Assembly: GCA_024403935.1 (NCBI GenBank)
Contig: JAKSQV010000010.1
Coordinates: 1 to 46,526, forward strand
Direction: 5' to 3'
DNA length: 46,526 nt
Source of the DNA: Ruminococcus sp.
Lineage (GTDB): Bacteria > Bacillota > Clostridia > Oscillospirales > Ruminococcaceae
Made by a program: the position numbers and the translations under genes. Positions 3,330 to 28,936 of the stretch are shown piece by piece. Position 1 is the first letter of the stretch. Each line of letters opens with the position of its first letter. The notes beneath the pieces were generated by a model. The model saw only the letters and a program-made list of their open reading frames with translations. It did no database searches and was not told the origin of the DNA.

Positions 3330-3614
3330 TTATTTCTTACCGTTGTTAGATGTCTTGGAGCCTGCGTGGCCCTTGTATGTTCTTGTAGGTGCAAACTCGC
3401 CGAGCTTGTGACCTACCATATCCTCTGTTACATATACCGGAACGTGCTTGCGACCGTCATGAACAGCGAATGTGTGACCTACAAAGTCAGGGAATATTGT
3501 AGAAGAACGGCTCCATGTCTTGAGAACCTTCTTCTCACCTGCTTCATTCATTGCAACGACCCTCTTCAGGAGAACTTCCTGGACATAAGGTCCTTTTTTG
3601 ATACTTCTACTCAT
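3330..3614 (-). CDS. rpsS: 30S ribosomal protein S19
   Basis: A 94-residue protein starting [19 protein letters not shown], with the conserved [29 protein letters not shown] block. S19 forms a complex with S13 in the 30S head. The length matches the family. It is 22 nt downstream of the rplB stop. Confidence 0.97.
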
Positions 3615-3636
3615 TTATCAAGTTCCTCCTTTCAGA

Positions 3637-4470
3637 TTACTTGCCGTTGCGGCGCTTTACGATGAACTTATCAGTTCTGTTGTGCTTCTTACGTGTCTTG
3701 TAGCCGAGAGCGGGCTTACCCCAGGGGGTAACAGGTCCGGGACGGCCGACAGGTGATTTACCTTCACCACCACCGTGAGGGTGATCGCAGGGGTTCATTA
3801 CAGAACCGCGAACTGTAGGTCTCCAGCCCATATTACGTACTCTACCGGCTTTACCGAAGTTTACGTTCTCGTGGTCGATATTGGAAACCTGACCGATAGC
3901 AGCCTTGCATCCGATCGGAACCTTTCTCATCTAGCCGGAAGGAAGTCTGATAAGTGCGTATGAGCCTTCCTTACCCATGAGCTGAGCCTGGTTGCCTGCG
4001 CTTCTTACGAGCTGTGCGCCCTTGCCGGGATAAAGCTCGATAGCGTGGATGAATGTACCAACAGGGATGTCTGCAAGCTTGAGAGCGTTGCCGGGCTTGA
4101 TATCAGCCTCTGAACCGGACTCGATCTTGTCGCCTACCTTCAGGCCGTTAGGAGCGAGGATGTATCTCTTCTCGCCGTCCTCGTACTGAACGAGAGCGAT
4201 GAATGCGCTTCTGTTGGGGTCATATTCAAGAGTCTGAACAACAGCGATCATGTTGTCCTTGTCACGCTTGAAATCTATAACGCGGTACTTTCTTCTGTTA
4301 CCGCCGCCTCTGTGGCGAACTGTAATTCTGCCGTAGCTATTTCTTCCTGACTTCTTCTTCATGGGCTCGAGAAGGCTCTTCTCGGGCTCAACCTTTGAGA
4401 GTACCGAATAGTCGGTAACTGTCATCTGACGTCTGGAAGGAGTAGTAGGCTTGTAGGTTTTAATAGCCAT
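3637..4470 (-). CDS. rplB: 50S ribosomal protein L2, interrupted by an in-frame TAG codon
   Basis: Read through, the frame encodes 277 codons, the normal L2 length, but codon 180 is TAG (3931-3933). The first part (179 residues, [15 protein letters not shown] to IRLPSG) holds the OB fold and most of the SH3-like domain. The second part (97 residues) begins with an ATG that immediately follows the TAG and holds the [13 protein letters not shown] tail that reaches the peptidyl transferase centre. Family members have a Glu codon here, as in SGEMRKV; GAG to TAG is one base change. No Shine-Dalgarno sequence precedes the second ATG. L2 is essential, so this is a sequencing or assembly error, readthrough or suppression, or two polypeptides made by stop-start reinitiation. 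Confidence 0.9.
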
Positions 4471-4546
4471 TTCAACTTTCTCCTTTAATGCGTTTTCGCG
4501 GGAGCATTACTCCCATACTTGTTCTTCCTATTTAATAGGTAAGGGA

Positions 4547-4840
4547 TCAATACATTCCCTCGAAGAACTCGATAGCCTTTGAGTCCTCAGTAAGAGTTAC
4601 GATAGCCTTCTTCCAGGAAGAAGTCATGCCCTCGTATCTGCCGAGACGCTTCATCTTGCCGTTTACGTTCATTGTGGTCACCTTATCGACCTCAACGCCG
4701 AAGAGCTTCTCAACAGCCTTCTTGATCTCAGGCTTTGTAGCGTCCTTGGCTACCTTAAAGGTGTACTTTCCTACCTGAAGTCCGTCCATAGACTTTTCGG
4801 TGATAACGGGCTTGAGGATGATATCCTGTGCTGTTTTCAT
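4547..4840 (-). CDS. rplW: 50S ribosomal protein L23
   Basis: A 97-residue protein with the family segments [41 protein letters not shown] and the RNA-binding loop [15 protein letters not shown]23 is at the tunnel exit and docks trigger factor and SRP. Its start overlaps the stop of rplD at 4840. It ends with TGA, whereas most neighbours end with TAA. A 76-nt gap separates it from rplB; it contains only short weak inverted repeats. Confidence 0.97.
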
Positions 4841-10613: not shown

Positions 10614-11261
10614 TTATTCCGAATACTCAGGTCCGTCTTCCTCTATTCTCTCATAGGGACAGCCGCCGAGTATCTCAAAGCACTGTGAATTGAGCCACAT
10701 CTGCGCCGTGACGATGATGTCAAAGCCGCCGCCCGGCTCCGTGATTATCTGCGAGGGCGTATATTTCGGTATCCCGAAGCCTGCAAGCATATTTGAGATG
10801 ATTCCTGCATGGGTGATGAGGGCGCAGTGGGTAAGTCCGCTCTCCATCATGTCGATGATGATGTTATGAAGCCCCGTGTATGTTCGTGCTGTCATCTCCT
10901 CAAGACTTTCACCCTTGGGCGGACGTGCATCCTTTCCGCCGTGCAGCCACGACTTATAGTCATCACGGTTGATGAGCTCGTCAACGCTCTTGCCGTCAAA
11001 CTCGCCGAAATCAAGCTCACGGAAATCATCCACGGGGACTATCTCAGTCTCGGGGAAGAGTATATCCGCTGTCTCCCTGCACCTCAGAAGCGGCGACGTG
11101 TAGACTCTGTGTACGGACGGGTAGTCGAACTCGTCCATCTTCGCCGCAAGGTCGGCTGCTCCCTTTGGAGAGAGCGGCATATCCGTCTTTCCGATATATA
11201 TTCCTTTTTCGTTTGCCTCGGTAAGACCGTGGCGGATAACACTTATCCTGTAACCTTTCAT
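10614..11261 (-). CDS. Histidine phosphatase family protein (phosphoglycerate mutase-like)
   Basis: A 215-residue protein with the phosphohistidine motif IRHGLTEANEKGIYIG near the N-terminus, the second catalytic region DDFRELDFGEFDGKSVDEL and the late His in ALITHAGIISNML. The family covers phosphoglycerate mutases, cobalamin biosynthesis phosphatases and general phosphatases; the substrate cannot be assigned. The start at 11261 is chosen because GGGAAGGAG precedes it at a good distance; an upstream ATG adds 11 residues without a site. Confidence 0.88.
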   Translation of the reverse strand: MKGYRISVIRHGLTEANEKGIYIGKTDMPLSPKGAADLAAKMDEFDYPSVHRVYTSPLLRCRETADILFPETEIVPVDDFRELDFGEFDGKSVDELINRDDYKSWLHGGKDARPPKGESLEEMTARTYTGLHNIIIDMMESGLTHCALITHAGIISNMLAGFGIPKYTPSQIITEPGGGFDIIVTAQMWLNSQCFEILGGCPYERIEEDGPEYSE

Positions 11262-11376
11262 ATTCTTCTCCTTCCCATTATGCAAAAATGCCAAAAACAG
11301 GCTGATTTTTTATAACTGTTGGTAATTCTTACAAATTGGACCGTAAAATCTCTCTGTAATTCCATAATTCAGCATA

Positions 11377-16672: not shown

Positions 16673-17479
16673 TCACTCTGTGAACTCTCCGATTTTTCTA
16701 AACTTAGTATAACGTTCTTTCAGTAAAACGTCAATATCTTTTTTACATTTTTCAGGAATTTTATGTAACAAATATTCCTTGATATTTTCTGAAATTTTGT
16801 CTAAATCGTTATGTGCTCCGCCGAGAGGCTCCTCAATGATGGTTTCTGCGACCCCGAGACGCACCATATCCTCAGCCGTTATCTTCATTATATTGCAGGC
16901 TTCTTCCTCGCGTTCAGCATCCTTCCAGAGAATGCTCGCAAAGCCGCGCGGTGATATTACCGAATACTGTGCGTTCTCAAGCATGGCAAGCTCATCGCAC
17001 ACGCCGAGTGCAAGAGCTCCTCCGCTTCCGCCCTCACCGAGCACTATGGAGATTATCGGAGTGCGCAAGGTCATGAACTCTGCGATATTGCGGGCAATAG
17101 CCTCGCCCTGTCCTCTTTCCTCCGCAGCAACTCCGGCATACGCGCCGGGAGTGTCTATGAAGCATATAACAGGTCTGTGAAACTTCTCCGCCTGTCTTGC
17201 GAGACGCAGAGCCTTTCTGTATCCCTCGGGAAGCGGCATTGCAAAGTTGCACGCCTTGTTCTCGTCGATGTCTCTGCCCTTGACCTGTGCAATGACAGTC
17301 ACGGGAGTACCGTCGAGCGAGGCGATACCTCCGATAACAGCCTTGTCATCACCGAAGGAGCGGTCGCCGTGCATCTCATAGAAATCGCTGAATATCAGCG
17401 GTATATAGTCGTTTATGGTAGGTCTGCCCTTTGTATGGACAAGCTTCAGGCGTTCCCACGCAGTCTTTTTTTCGTCCAT
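16673..17479 (-). CDS. accA: Acetyl-CoA carboxylase carboxyltransferase subunit alpha
   Basis: A 268-residue protein with KGRDIDENKACNFAMPLPEGYRKA in the middle and the crotonase-fold segment SIVLGEGGSGGALALGVCD. With AccD it moves the carboxyl group from biotin to acetyl-CoA, forming malonyl-CoA. It begins 3 nt after the accD stop, so expression is coupled. It is somewhat shorter than the E. coli subunit, as is usual in Firmicutes. Confidence 0.95.
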   Translation of the reverse strand: MDEKKTAWERLKLVHTKGRPTINDYIPLIFSDFYEMHGDRSFGDDKAVIGGIASLDGTPVTVIAQVKGRDIDENKACNFAMPLPEGYRKALRLARQAEKFHRPVICFIDTPGAYAGVAAEERGQGEAIARNIAEFMTLRTPIISIVLGEGGSGGALALGVCDELAMLENAQYSVISPRGFASILWKDAEREEEACNIMKITAEDMVRLGVAETIIEEPLGGAHNDLDKISENIKEYLLHKIPEKCKKDIDVLLKERYTKFRKIGEFTE

Positions 17480-17482
17480 CCG

Positions 17483-18325
17483 TCAGCTCTCCTTTCCACT
17501 ACAGCCGTGGAGCGCGAGAATGTGTCCGAGAGTAGCTCTCATGCGCTTTCTCTCGACTATCATATCCACGAAGCCCTTTTCCTGCATAAATTCGGCAAGC
17601 TGGAAGTCCTCGGGAAGTCTCTGCTTCATTGTGCTCTCGATGACACGTCTGCCTGCGAAGCCTATAAGCACCTTCGGTTCGGCGATGATGATGTCTCCGA
17701 GTGAAGCAAAGCTCGCTGTAACGCCGCCCGTTGTCGGATCGGTGAGGACTGTTATGTACAGTCCGCCCTTGTCGCTGTGGAGCTTTACTGCTCCCGATGT
17801 CTTTGCCATCTGCATGAGTGAGACTATGCCCTCCTGCATACGCGCGCCGCCCGAAGCGGTAAAGAGTATGACAGGCAGTCCCTTTTCGGAAGCATACTCA
17901 AAAAGGCGTGTTATCTTCTCGCCTACGACGCTTCCCATTGAAGCCATCATGTAATGTGAATCCATTACGCCTATCGCAGCTTCTATGCCCTTGATAGTGG
18001 CTGTACCCGTTACAACAGCGTCATTGAGTCCCGTTGCACTGCGAAGCTCCTGCTGCTTTTCCTGATAATCGGGAAATTCGATGGGATCGCCGCTTTTCAT
18101 CTCAGGATCAAGCTCGGAAAAGCTGTCCTTGTCAACGGTTATGGCTATTCTCTCAGCAGCAGAAAGTCTGCCGTGATAATTACAGTTGGGACATACCCTG
18201 TAAAGCTCCTCGTACTTGTCAACAGGGACAGAGCTCTGACATCTCGGACATTTGAAAGAGGGCTTTTCGTCCTCGTCGCTGCCGTTGAAGCGGAGCTTAA
18301 CAACATTGAAAAAATCGTCAAACAT
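17483..18325 (-). CDS. accD: Acetyl-CoA carboxylase carboxyltransferase subunit beta
   Basis: A 280-residue protein with an N-terminal four-cysteine zinc ribbon (CPRCQSSVPVDKYEELYRVC, then PNC) and the carboxyltransferase core VILFTASGGARMQEGIVSLMQMAKTS. The zinc ribbon binds RNA/DNA in E. coli AccD and couples expression to activity there. It lies between accC and accA with AAGGAG before the ATG. Confidence 0.96.
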   Translation of the reverse strand: MFDDFFNVVKLRFNGSDEDEKPSFKCPRCQSSVPVDKYEELYRVCPNCNYHGRLSAAERIAITVDKDSFSELDPEMKSGDPIEFPDYQEKQQELRSATGLNDAVVTGTATIKGIEAAIGVMDSHYMMASMGSVVGEKITRLFEYASEKGLPVILFTASGGARMQEGIVSLMQMAKTSGAVKLHSDKGGLYITVLTDPTTGGVTASFASLGDIIIAEPKVLIGFAGRRVIESTMKQRLPEDFQLAEFMQEKGFVDMIVERKRMRATLGHILALHGCSGKES

Positions 18326-28435: not shown

Positions 28436-28936
28436 ATGACTGTATTTCTTTGCGGATTCATGGGCTGCGGCAAAACGACCGCAGGCAGGCTCGCAGCGAA
28501 AAAGCTCGGCTGCAGCTTCTGCGACACCGACGATCTCATAGTTGAAAGCCAGAAAATGTCTGTTCCCGAGATATTTGCCGCTAAGGGCGAAGCATATTTC
28601 CGTCAGGTCGAGGCGGACATCGTAAAGGTGCTGTGCGGCAGAACGGCTGTTGTCGCCTGCGGAGGCGGAGCAATGCTCAATCCCGATACCGCAGCGGCTG
28701 CCTCCGAAGCAGGTGCGGTAATATTCCTCGACACCGACTTCGAGACCTGCTATGAGCGTATCCGCAGCGATAAAAACCGTCCTATAGCGGCTTCGTCAAC
28801 AAAGGAGGAGCTTCTGGAGCGCTTCAATGCGCGCCGTGCTGTCTACCTTTCACATTCCAACATACAGATACAATGCGGCGGAAGTCCGATAGAGACCGCC
28901 GATATGATTGTCGGATCAGTCAGAAATTTCCGATAG
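28436..28936 (+). CDS. aroK: Shikimate kinase
   Basis: A 166-residue kinase with Walker A GFMGCGKTTAGRLAAKKLG, DTDDLIVESQKMSVPEIFAAKGEAYFRQVE for shikimate binding and VVACGGGAML. It phosphorylates shikimate with ATP. It follows aroE by 34 nt and has AAGGAG before the ATG. It ends with TAG, showing that TAG serves as a normal stop in this genome, which bears on the rplB amber codon. Confidence 0.95.
   Translation: MTVFLCGFMGCGKTTAGRLAAKKLGCSFCDTDDLIVESQKMSVPEIFAAKGEAYFRQVEADIVKVLCGRTAVVACGGGAMLNPDTAAAASEAGAVIFLDTDFETCYERIRSDKNRPIAASSTKEELLERFNARRAVYLSHSNIQIQCGGSPIETADMIVGSVRNFR

Follow-up and report, generated by a model that had tools for sequence, protein, structure and literature searches.

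Does this genome really carry a stop codon in the middle of rplB, the gene for ribosomal protein L2, and does it then make L2 in two pieces, or does the stop belong to the assembly only? The window, that is, the whole stretch of DNA analyzed, is the entire contig C2 of 46,526 bases. When the complement of positions 3637-4470 is translated, the L2 obtained is interrupted only once, at position 180 of 277, where the minus-strand codons read GGC TAG ATG AGA, with the TAG at 3933-3931, the ATG at 3930-3928 and 0 nt between them. The two open reading frames on either side of the stop, 3931-4470 (179 aa) and 3637-3930 (97 aa), lie in one and the same frame of the minus strand. An earlier note on this DNA had described a TAG followed at once by an ATG in rplB and two frames in register which together make a 277-codon L2; the minus-strand sequence bears out the former, and the reading frames and the translation with its one internal stop bear out the latter. 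The features discussed are the following.

3637..4470, minus strand: rplB (ribosomal protein L2), 277 codons and the final stop, broken once at codon 180 (reading frames, translation, Pfam)
3931..4470, minus strand: first open piece, 179 codons and the TAG, with all of L2_N and positions 1-55 of L2_C (reading frame, Pfam)
3931..3933, minus strand: in-frame TAG, codon 180, Glu (GAG or GAA) in relatives that could be read (sequence, relatives)
3637..3930, minus strand: second open piece, 97 codons from the conserved Met181 codon, with positions 57-126 of L2_C (reading frame, Pfam)
3330..3614, minus strand: rpsS (S19), uninterrupted, downstream neighbor in the operon (reading frame, Pfam)
4547..4840, minus strand: rplW (L23), uninterrupted, upstream neighbor in the operon (reading frame, Pfam)

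Since the Pfam match to L2_C ends at its position 55 in the first piece and resumes at position 57 in the second, the TAG replaces one residue in the middle of this domain. The gene has both L2 domains, in order and in one frame, and is flanked by L23 and S19 as part of a ribosomal operon, in which Pfam confirmed 13 further members from L5 to S10. What the gene does not have is an uninterrupted reading frame. A second private change in L2 was seen at codon 264 (3679-3681), where His is replaced by Asn (AAC, and CAC in eight congeners). A search of solved structures with L2 at a threshold of E 1e-120 gave no match; the best solved-structure match has Asn at the place aligned with residue 264, so this change may well be tolerated.

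Comparison of rplB in close relatives had been proposed as a check, and in the relatives that could be read codon 180 is GAG or GAA. When 125 genomes of the genus were searched with exact patterns, TAR was found in one, the window's own genome, and GAR in 88, with the remaining 36 matching neither pattern and so left unread by this test; in one of the 88, G030, the match is to a second L2-like sequence, and the main rplB of G030 has GAA. Of 109 other loci (24 from the same genus, five from the same order and 80 from named genomes, with possible overlap in origin), 108 have Glu as residue 180, and the remaining locus, L026, ends before this residue. The statement that the family has Glu at this position accordingly holds for 108 of the 108 loci that cover it. 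In 29 congener loci (L232-L260), partly counted already, the codon is GAG in 15 and GAA in 14, and every alignment covering codon 180 in the relatives found by an rplB DNA search reads one or the other. Among the relatives searched the closest over the whole of rplB are G008 and G022, with 94% and 92% identity, both of which read GAG. Over the eight codons around the site G022 differs from the window at codon 180 alone, and G008 by one further synonymous base.

Codon 181 is ATG among the matches listed from the genus, with the exception of the second L2-like match of G030, and this conservation indicates that the ATG following the TAG is simply the Met181 codon usual in the genus. In relation to G008, codons 181-277 have 20 synonymous and two non-synonymous differences, and codons 1-179 have 21 and two. 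The piece after the stop looks as constrained as the piece before it, so that rplB was intact until recently. The TAG is present in this assembly and was found in no other genome examined, and no visible compensating feature accompanies it. A split L2 could be expected to be shared by related genomes, and the interruption was found in one of 125 genomes of the genus (36 unread); a wrong base or a minority allele could be expected to be private to one assembly and without compensating change, and this is what was observed.

It is therefore very probable that we are dealing with an isolated discrepancy of one base, either a wrong consensus base at codon 180 or a minority allele unrepresentative of the living population. 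In the second case the assembler would have picked up that allele; in either case the L2 of the population is most likely a normal single chain of 277 residues. We infer that living cells do not carry the TAG, which most likely is not a real feature of the organism.

The stop directly before an ATG is the best point in favor of a biological reading. If the TAG were real, translation could terminate at the UAG and resume at the AUG next to it, giving two L2 chains that would assemble in the large subunit. In the rplB of G008 a single base change would turn any of 88 codons into a stop, and only two of these codons are followed by ATG, GTG or TTG; a stop arising at random would thus have a start codon next to it in about 1 in 40 cases, a mild coincidence which favors something tolerated. 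Both pieces of rplB are, moreover, still open and conserved. The available part of a study of termination-reinitiation (PMC10666635) documents reinitiation over very short distances in E. coli, and 0 nt falls within the range of distances in which it works; in three E. coli gene pairs described there, efficiency with a gap of 2 nt was lower by 5, 20 and 70% than with the native overlap. The rplB pieces resemble such bacterial pairs in having stop and start codon side by side, the arrangement preferred in translational coupling. According to the same part of that source, however, most native pairs have an overlap of 4 or 1 nt, whereas in rplB the distance is 0 nt, no ribosome-binding sequence is seen and the putative start is a conserved internal Met. 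The second piece shows no translation signals of its own: by eye, no Shine-Dalgarno-like sequence precedes the ATG at 3930 (...CTTATCAGACTTCCTTCCGGCTAG), in contrast to the AAAGGAG before rplB itself, and relatives have the same ATG as their Met181 codon. A search of window positions 3500-4700 for promoter-like sites found none. The cut also passes through the Pfam L2_C domain, and the TAG was found in no other genome of the genus. Translation of L2 as two chains by reinitiation, which the earlier note had listed among its possibilities, is thus mechanistically possible; nothing in the sequence looks adapted to it, and we consider it very unlikely.

We know of no split L2 in bacteria, and a literature search for split ribosomal proteins in bacteria gave no bacterial case among the matches listed, which is not proof of absence. 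The original paper on the split mitochondrial rpl2 is reportedly that of Adams and co-workers. In eudicots, as the available part of one report states, mitochondrial rpl2 is split into the genes 5' rpl2 and 3' rpl2 (PMC5664110), so that L2 is divided in the mitochondria of some plants, and the earlier statement that a truly split L2 would be new was too broad. This system is similar to the one considered here in that L2 is coded as an N-terminal and a C-terminal piece. It differs, to the extent that the available text describes it, in consisting of separate genes, partly in different compartments and common to lineages (PMC5664110), while the rplB interruption is one base in one draft and one operon and was found in no relative. 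A shortened form of uL2 in E. coli (tL2), which results from cleavage after Arg214 and was considered an artefact of lysis (PMC12039935), likewise is L2 without its C-terminal part, but it is not encoded by a stop. That the sole L2 of this organism consists of chains of 179 and 97 residues, which would be the first fission of a bacterial L2 gene, caught one mutation after the event, is most unlikely indeed.

A real TAG could also be read through, by a suppressor tRNA or owing to weakened termination at UAG; L2 would then be full-length, with one amino acid or another inserted at position 180. In the part of the genome sampled (362,838 bases) TAG is used least of the three stops; it ends 13 of the 260 non-overlapping open reading frames of at least 150 aa, the first rplB piece included, and such rarity would suit readthrough, as would another in-frame TAG, in the rpsS of the congener G011. 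Release factor RF1, however, is present and complete in the draft (516.9 bits, with the prfA cut-off at 423.25), next to a separate RF2, and both trmD and deoD end at TAG, matching their families to within a few residues of the ends. The genome has not lost RF1, as recoding would lead one to expect; no other interrupted gene was seen in about a fifth of the assembly, and TAG is still used as a terminator, given that 12 other long reading frames end in it. Wholesale reassignment of TAG was therefore rejected, in agreement with the earlier note, which had held it to be unsupported. The observation on which that opinion was based, TAG as a normal stop of aroK elsewhere in the window, stands: the shikimate-kinase-like reading frame at 28436-28936, which that note called aroK, does end in TAG, as do trmD and deoD. 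All NCBIfam matches of this reading frame are below the curated cut-offs.

The suppressor itself was also sought. Among the 20 tRNA genes found in the draft none has a CTA anticodon, in a tRNA set that is clearly incomplete, and no match in this genome was obtained with the CTA-tRNA pattern TCTARN{14,30}GTTCRANNC, a loose one whose reversed control matched more often than it did in most genomes. Matches of the draft to the PylS profile are below the curated cut-off. Since the congener G008, which is 99% complete, has 55 tRNA matches, the absence of a CTA tRNA is weak evidence, and a suppressor could be missing from a draft with such poor tRNA recovery. The proposed search for a suppressor tRNA thus found none, and the suppressor suggested in the earlier note gained no positive evidence. 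With RF1 complete, trmD and deoD ending at TAG at family length and no other interrupted gene seen in 363 kb, readthrough is very improbable. A CTA tRNA common to the genus was considered as well, for the pattern matched in 56 of 60 genus genomes and one recurrent match resembled a suppressor, and was rejected: in 13 of 13 loci fetched, ARAGORN calls the recurrent match or a near variant of it tRNA-Arg(TCT). The sole pattern match of G011 is among these 13 loci. Two neighboring matches, G432:C240:4-31 and 507-534, differ from the recurrent tRNA-Arg(TCT) match.

The quality of the assembly bears on all these explanations. It is a draft in 76 contigs (1,654,144 bases in all) with a contamination of 2.6% and a completeness of 74%, and from the latter we infer that it is probably metagenome-derived. 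Contig C2 starts inside rplE (an open-ended reading frame at 3-494, L5 by Pfam), 3.9 kb from the TAG, which indicates that the ribosomal operon is split across contigs in the draft. In 14 ribosomal genes, 2043 codons could be compared with at least five genomes; nine of the changes private to the window are non-synonymous, counting the stop, and 50 are synonymous. These numbers are within the range of eight relatives, which in 974-2043 codons each have 1-24 and 32-114, respectively, although indels in some of their alignments may inflate those relatives' numbers. Pervasive errors of the oxidation type (G>T/C>A) were considered and rejected: they account for three of 41 private sites in the window and for 5-17% in relatives, which is no excess.

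We also scanned the same 362,838 bases, about a fifth of the assembly, for in-frame stops preceded by 40 coding-like codons and followed by 40 open codons in the same frame, a criterion blind to frameshifts and to stops near gene ends such as that in the rpsS of G011. The scan gave 43 candidates. Among the 11 best, nine look like ordinary gene boundaries, one is in a frame judged non-coding and one is rplB; inspection of the remaining 32 by eye, without homology, revealed no interrupted gene. The draft is thus mostly sound and the rplB stop stands alone in it, which speaks against general recoding as well as against a widespread excess of errors, and fits one wrong or unrepresentative base.

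To see how often ribosomal genes are broken in this way we can look at other loci. One other in-frame point stop was present in 163 ribosomal gene copies from 24 loci of the same genus, none in 35 copies from five loci of the same order, and none was accepted in 501 copies from 80 loci of named genomes. A stop near the C-terminus of S3 in L092 and L125 was set aside, as it was taken for the normal end of a shorter S3. The one case found is an in-frame TAG at codon 12 of rpsS (S19) in G011, where seven other congeners read have CAG, and no start codon adjoins it.

10988-11269 of locus L143 (G011:C124:30000-49999), also in locus L006: rpsS of G011 with the stray TAG

An in-frame stop is rare per gene, yet any scan over many draft windows will meet one. 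Across the order, 353 of 394 genomes matched in an L2_C search and none had a stop among the matches listed, from which low-scoring rows, where broken genes would fall, were excluded and no rate was drawn. G033 was examined as a possible second broken rplB and rejected, its breaks in rplB and rpsS being runs of 54 and 102 N, and its rows were excluded as stops from the counts of residue 180 and of point stops. These runs are located in L136 (G033:C49) at about 17919-17972 and 17149-17250, and the first has the same bases on both flanks, as from mis-scaffolding or withheld sequence. The break considered here, unlike that of G033, is a clean single base, with no N runs or duplicated flanks. In the named isolate draft of Acetivibrio straminisolvens (L077, NZ_BAVR01000040.1) frame breaks, with no point stop, were seen in rplV (L22) and rplD (L4); they are probably sequencing errors.

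It could further be supposed that the TAG is real and harmless, with a second, intact rplB lying in the unassembled quarter of the genome. A completeness of 74% leaves room for such a copy, and other members of the genus have additional matches, a second, diverged one to L2 in G002 and the L2-like one in G030. The draft as a whole, however, has one L2_N and one L2_C match, that is, one L2 gene, and the interrupted copy is located in a normal ribosomal operon. Only three of 47 relatives with an rplB DNA match have two, of which G014 and G033 have complementary pieces of one gene, the third being G002. A second rplB is extremely unlikely. The divergent matches themselves, G002:C33:13971-14676 and G030:C62:2738-2760, represent either contamination or a second gene.

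Among the three possibilities that the earlier note named for this site, an error in the base, a suppressor and two chains, an error is best supported, with TAG in one of 125 genomes, no compensation and RF1 present. The evidence for it is a TAG private to one incomplete draft whose contig C2 begins within the same operon, Glu in the relatives that could be read, a post-stop piece that still looks constrained and the stray TAG in the rpsS of G011, a second draft of the genus; against it are an assembly that is not broadly error-ridden, the rarity of point stops in ribosomal genes elsewhere and the position of the stop directly before an ATG. Local errors in uncurated metagenome assemblies are described, in the available part of one source, as leaving incorrect protein-coding genes in databases (PMC7111523); that account is of local misassembly, not of single bases. 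The likeness is that an essential conserved gene is broken in one draft and intact in those relatives that could be read, and the difference is that the rplB break is a clean single base.

If real, a bacterial L2 in two pieces would put to the test the extent to which the most conserved ribosomal proteins can be broken, and the way in which gene fission begins. As it most likely stands, the interrupted rplB is a reason for caution: where a draft genome has a single-base stop in an essential gene, the reads should be consulted before recoding or gene fission is claimed.
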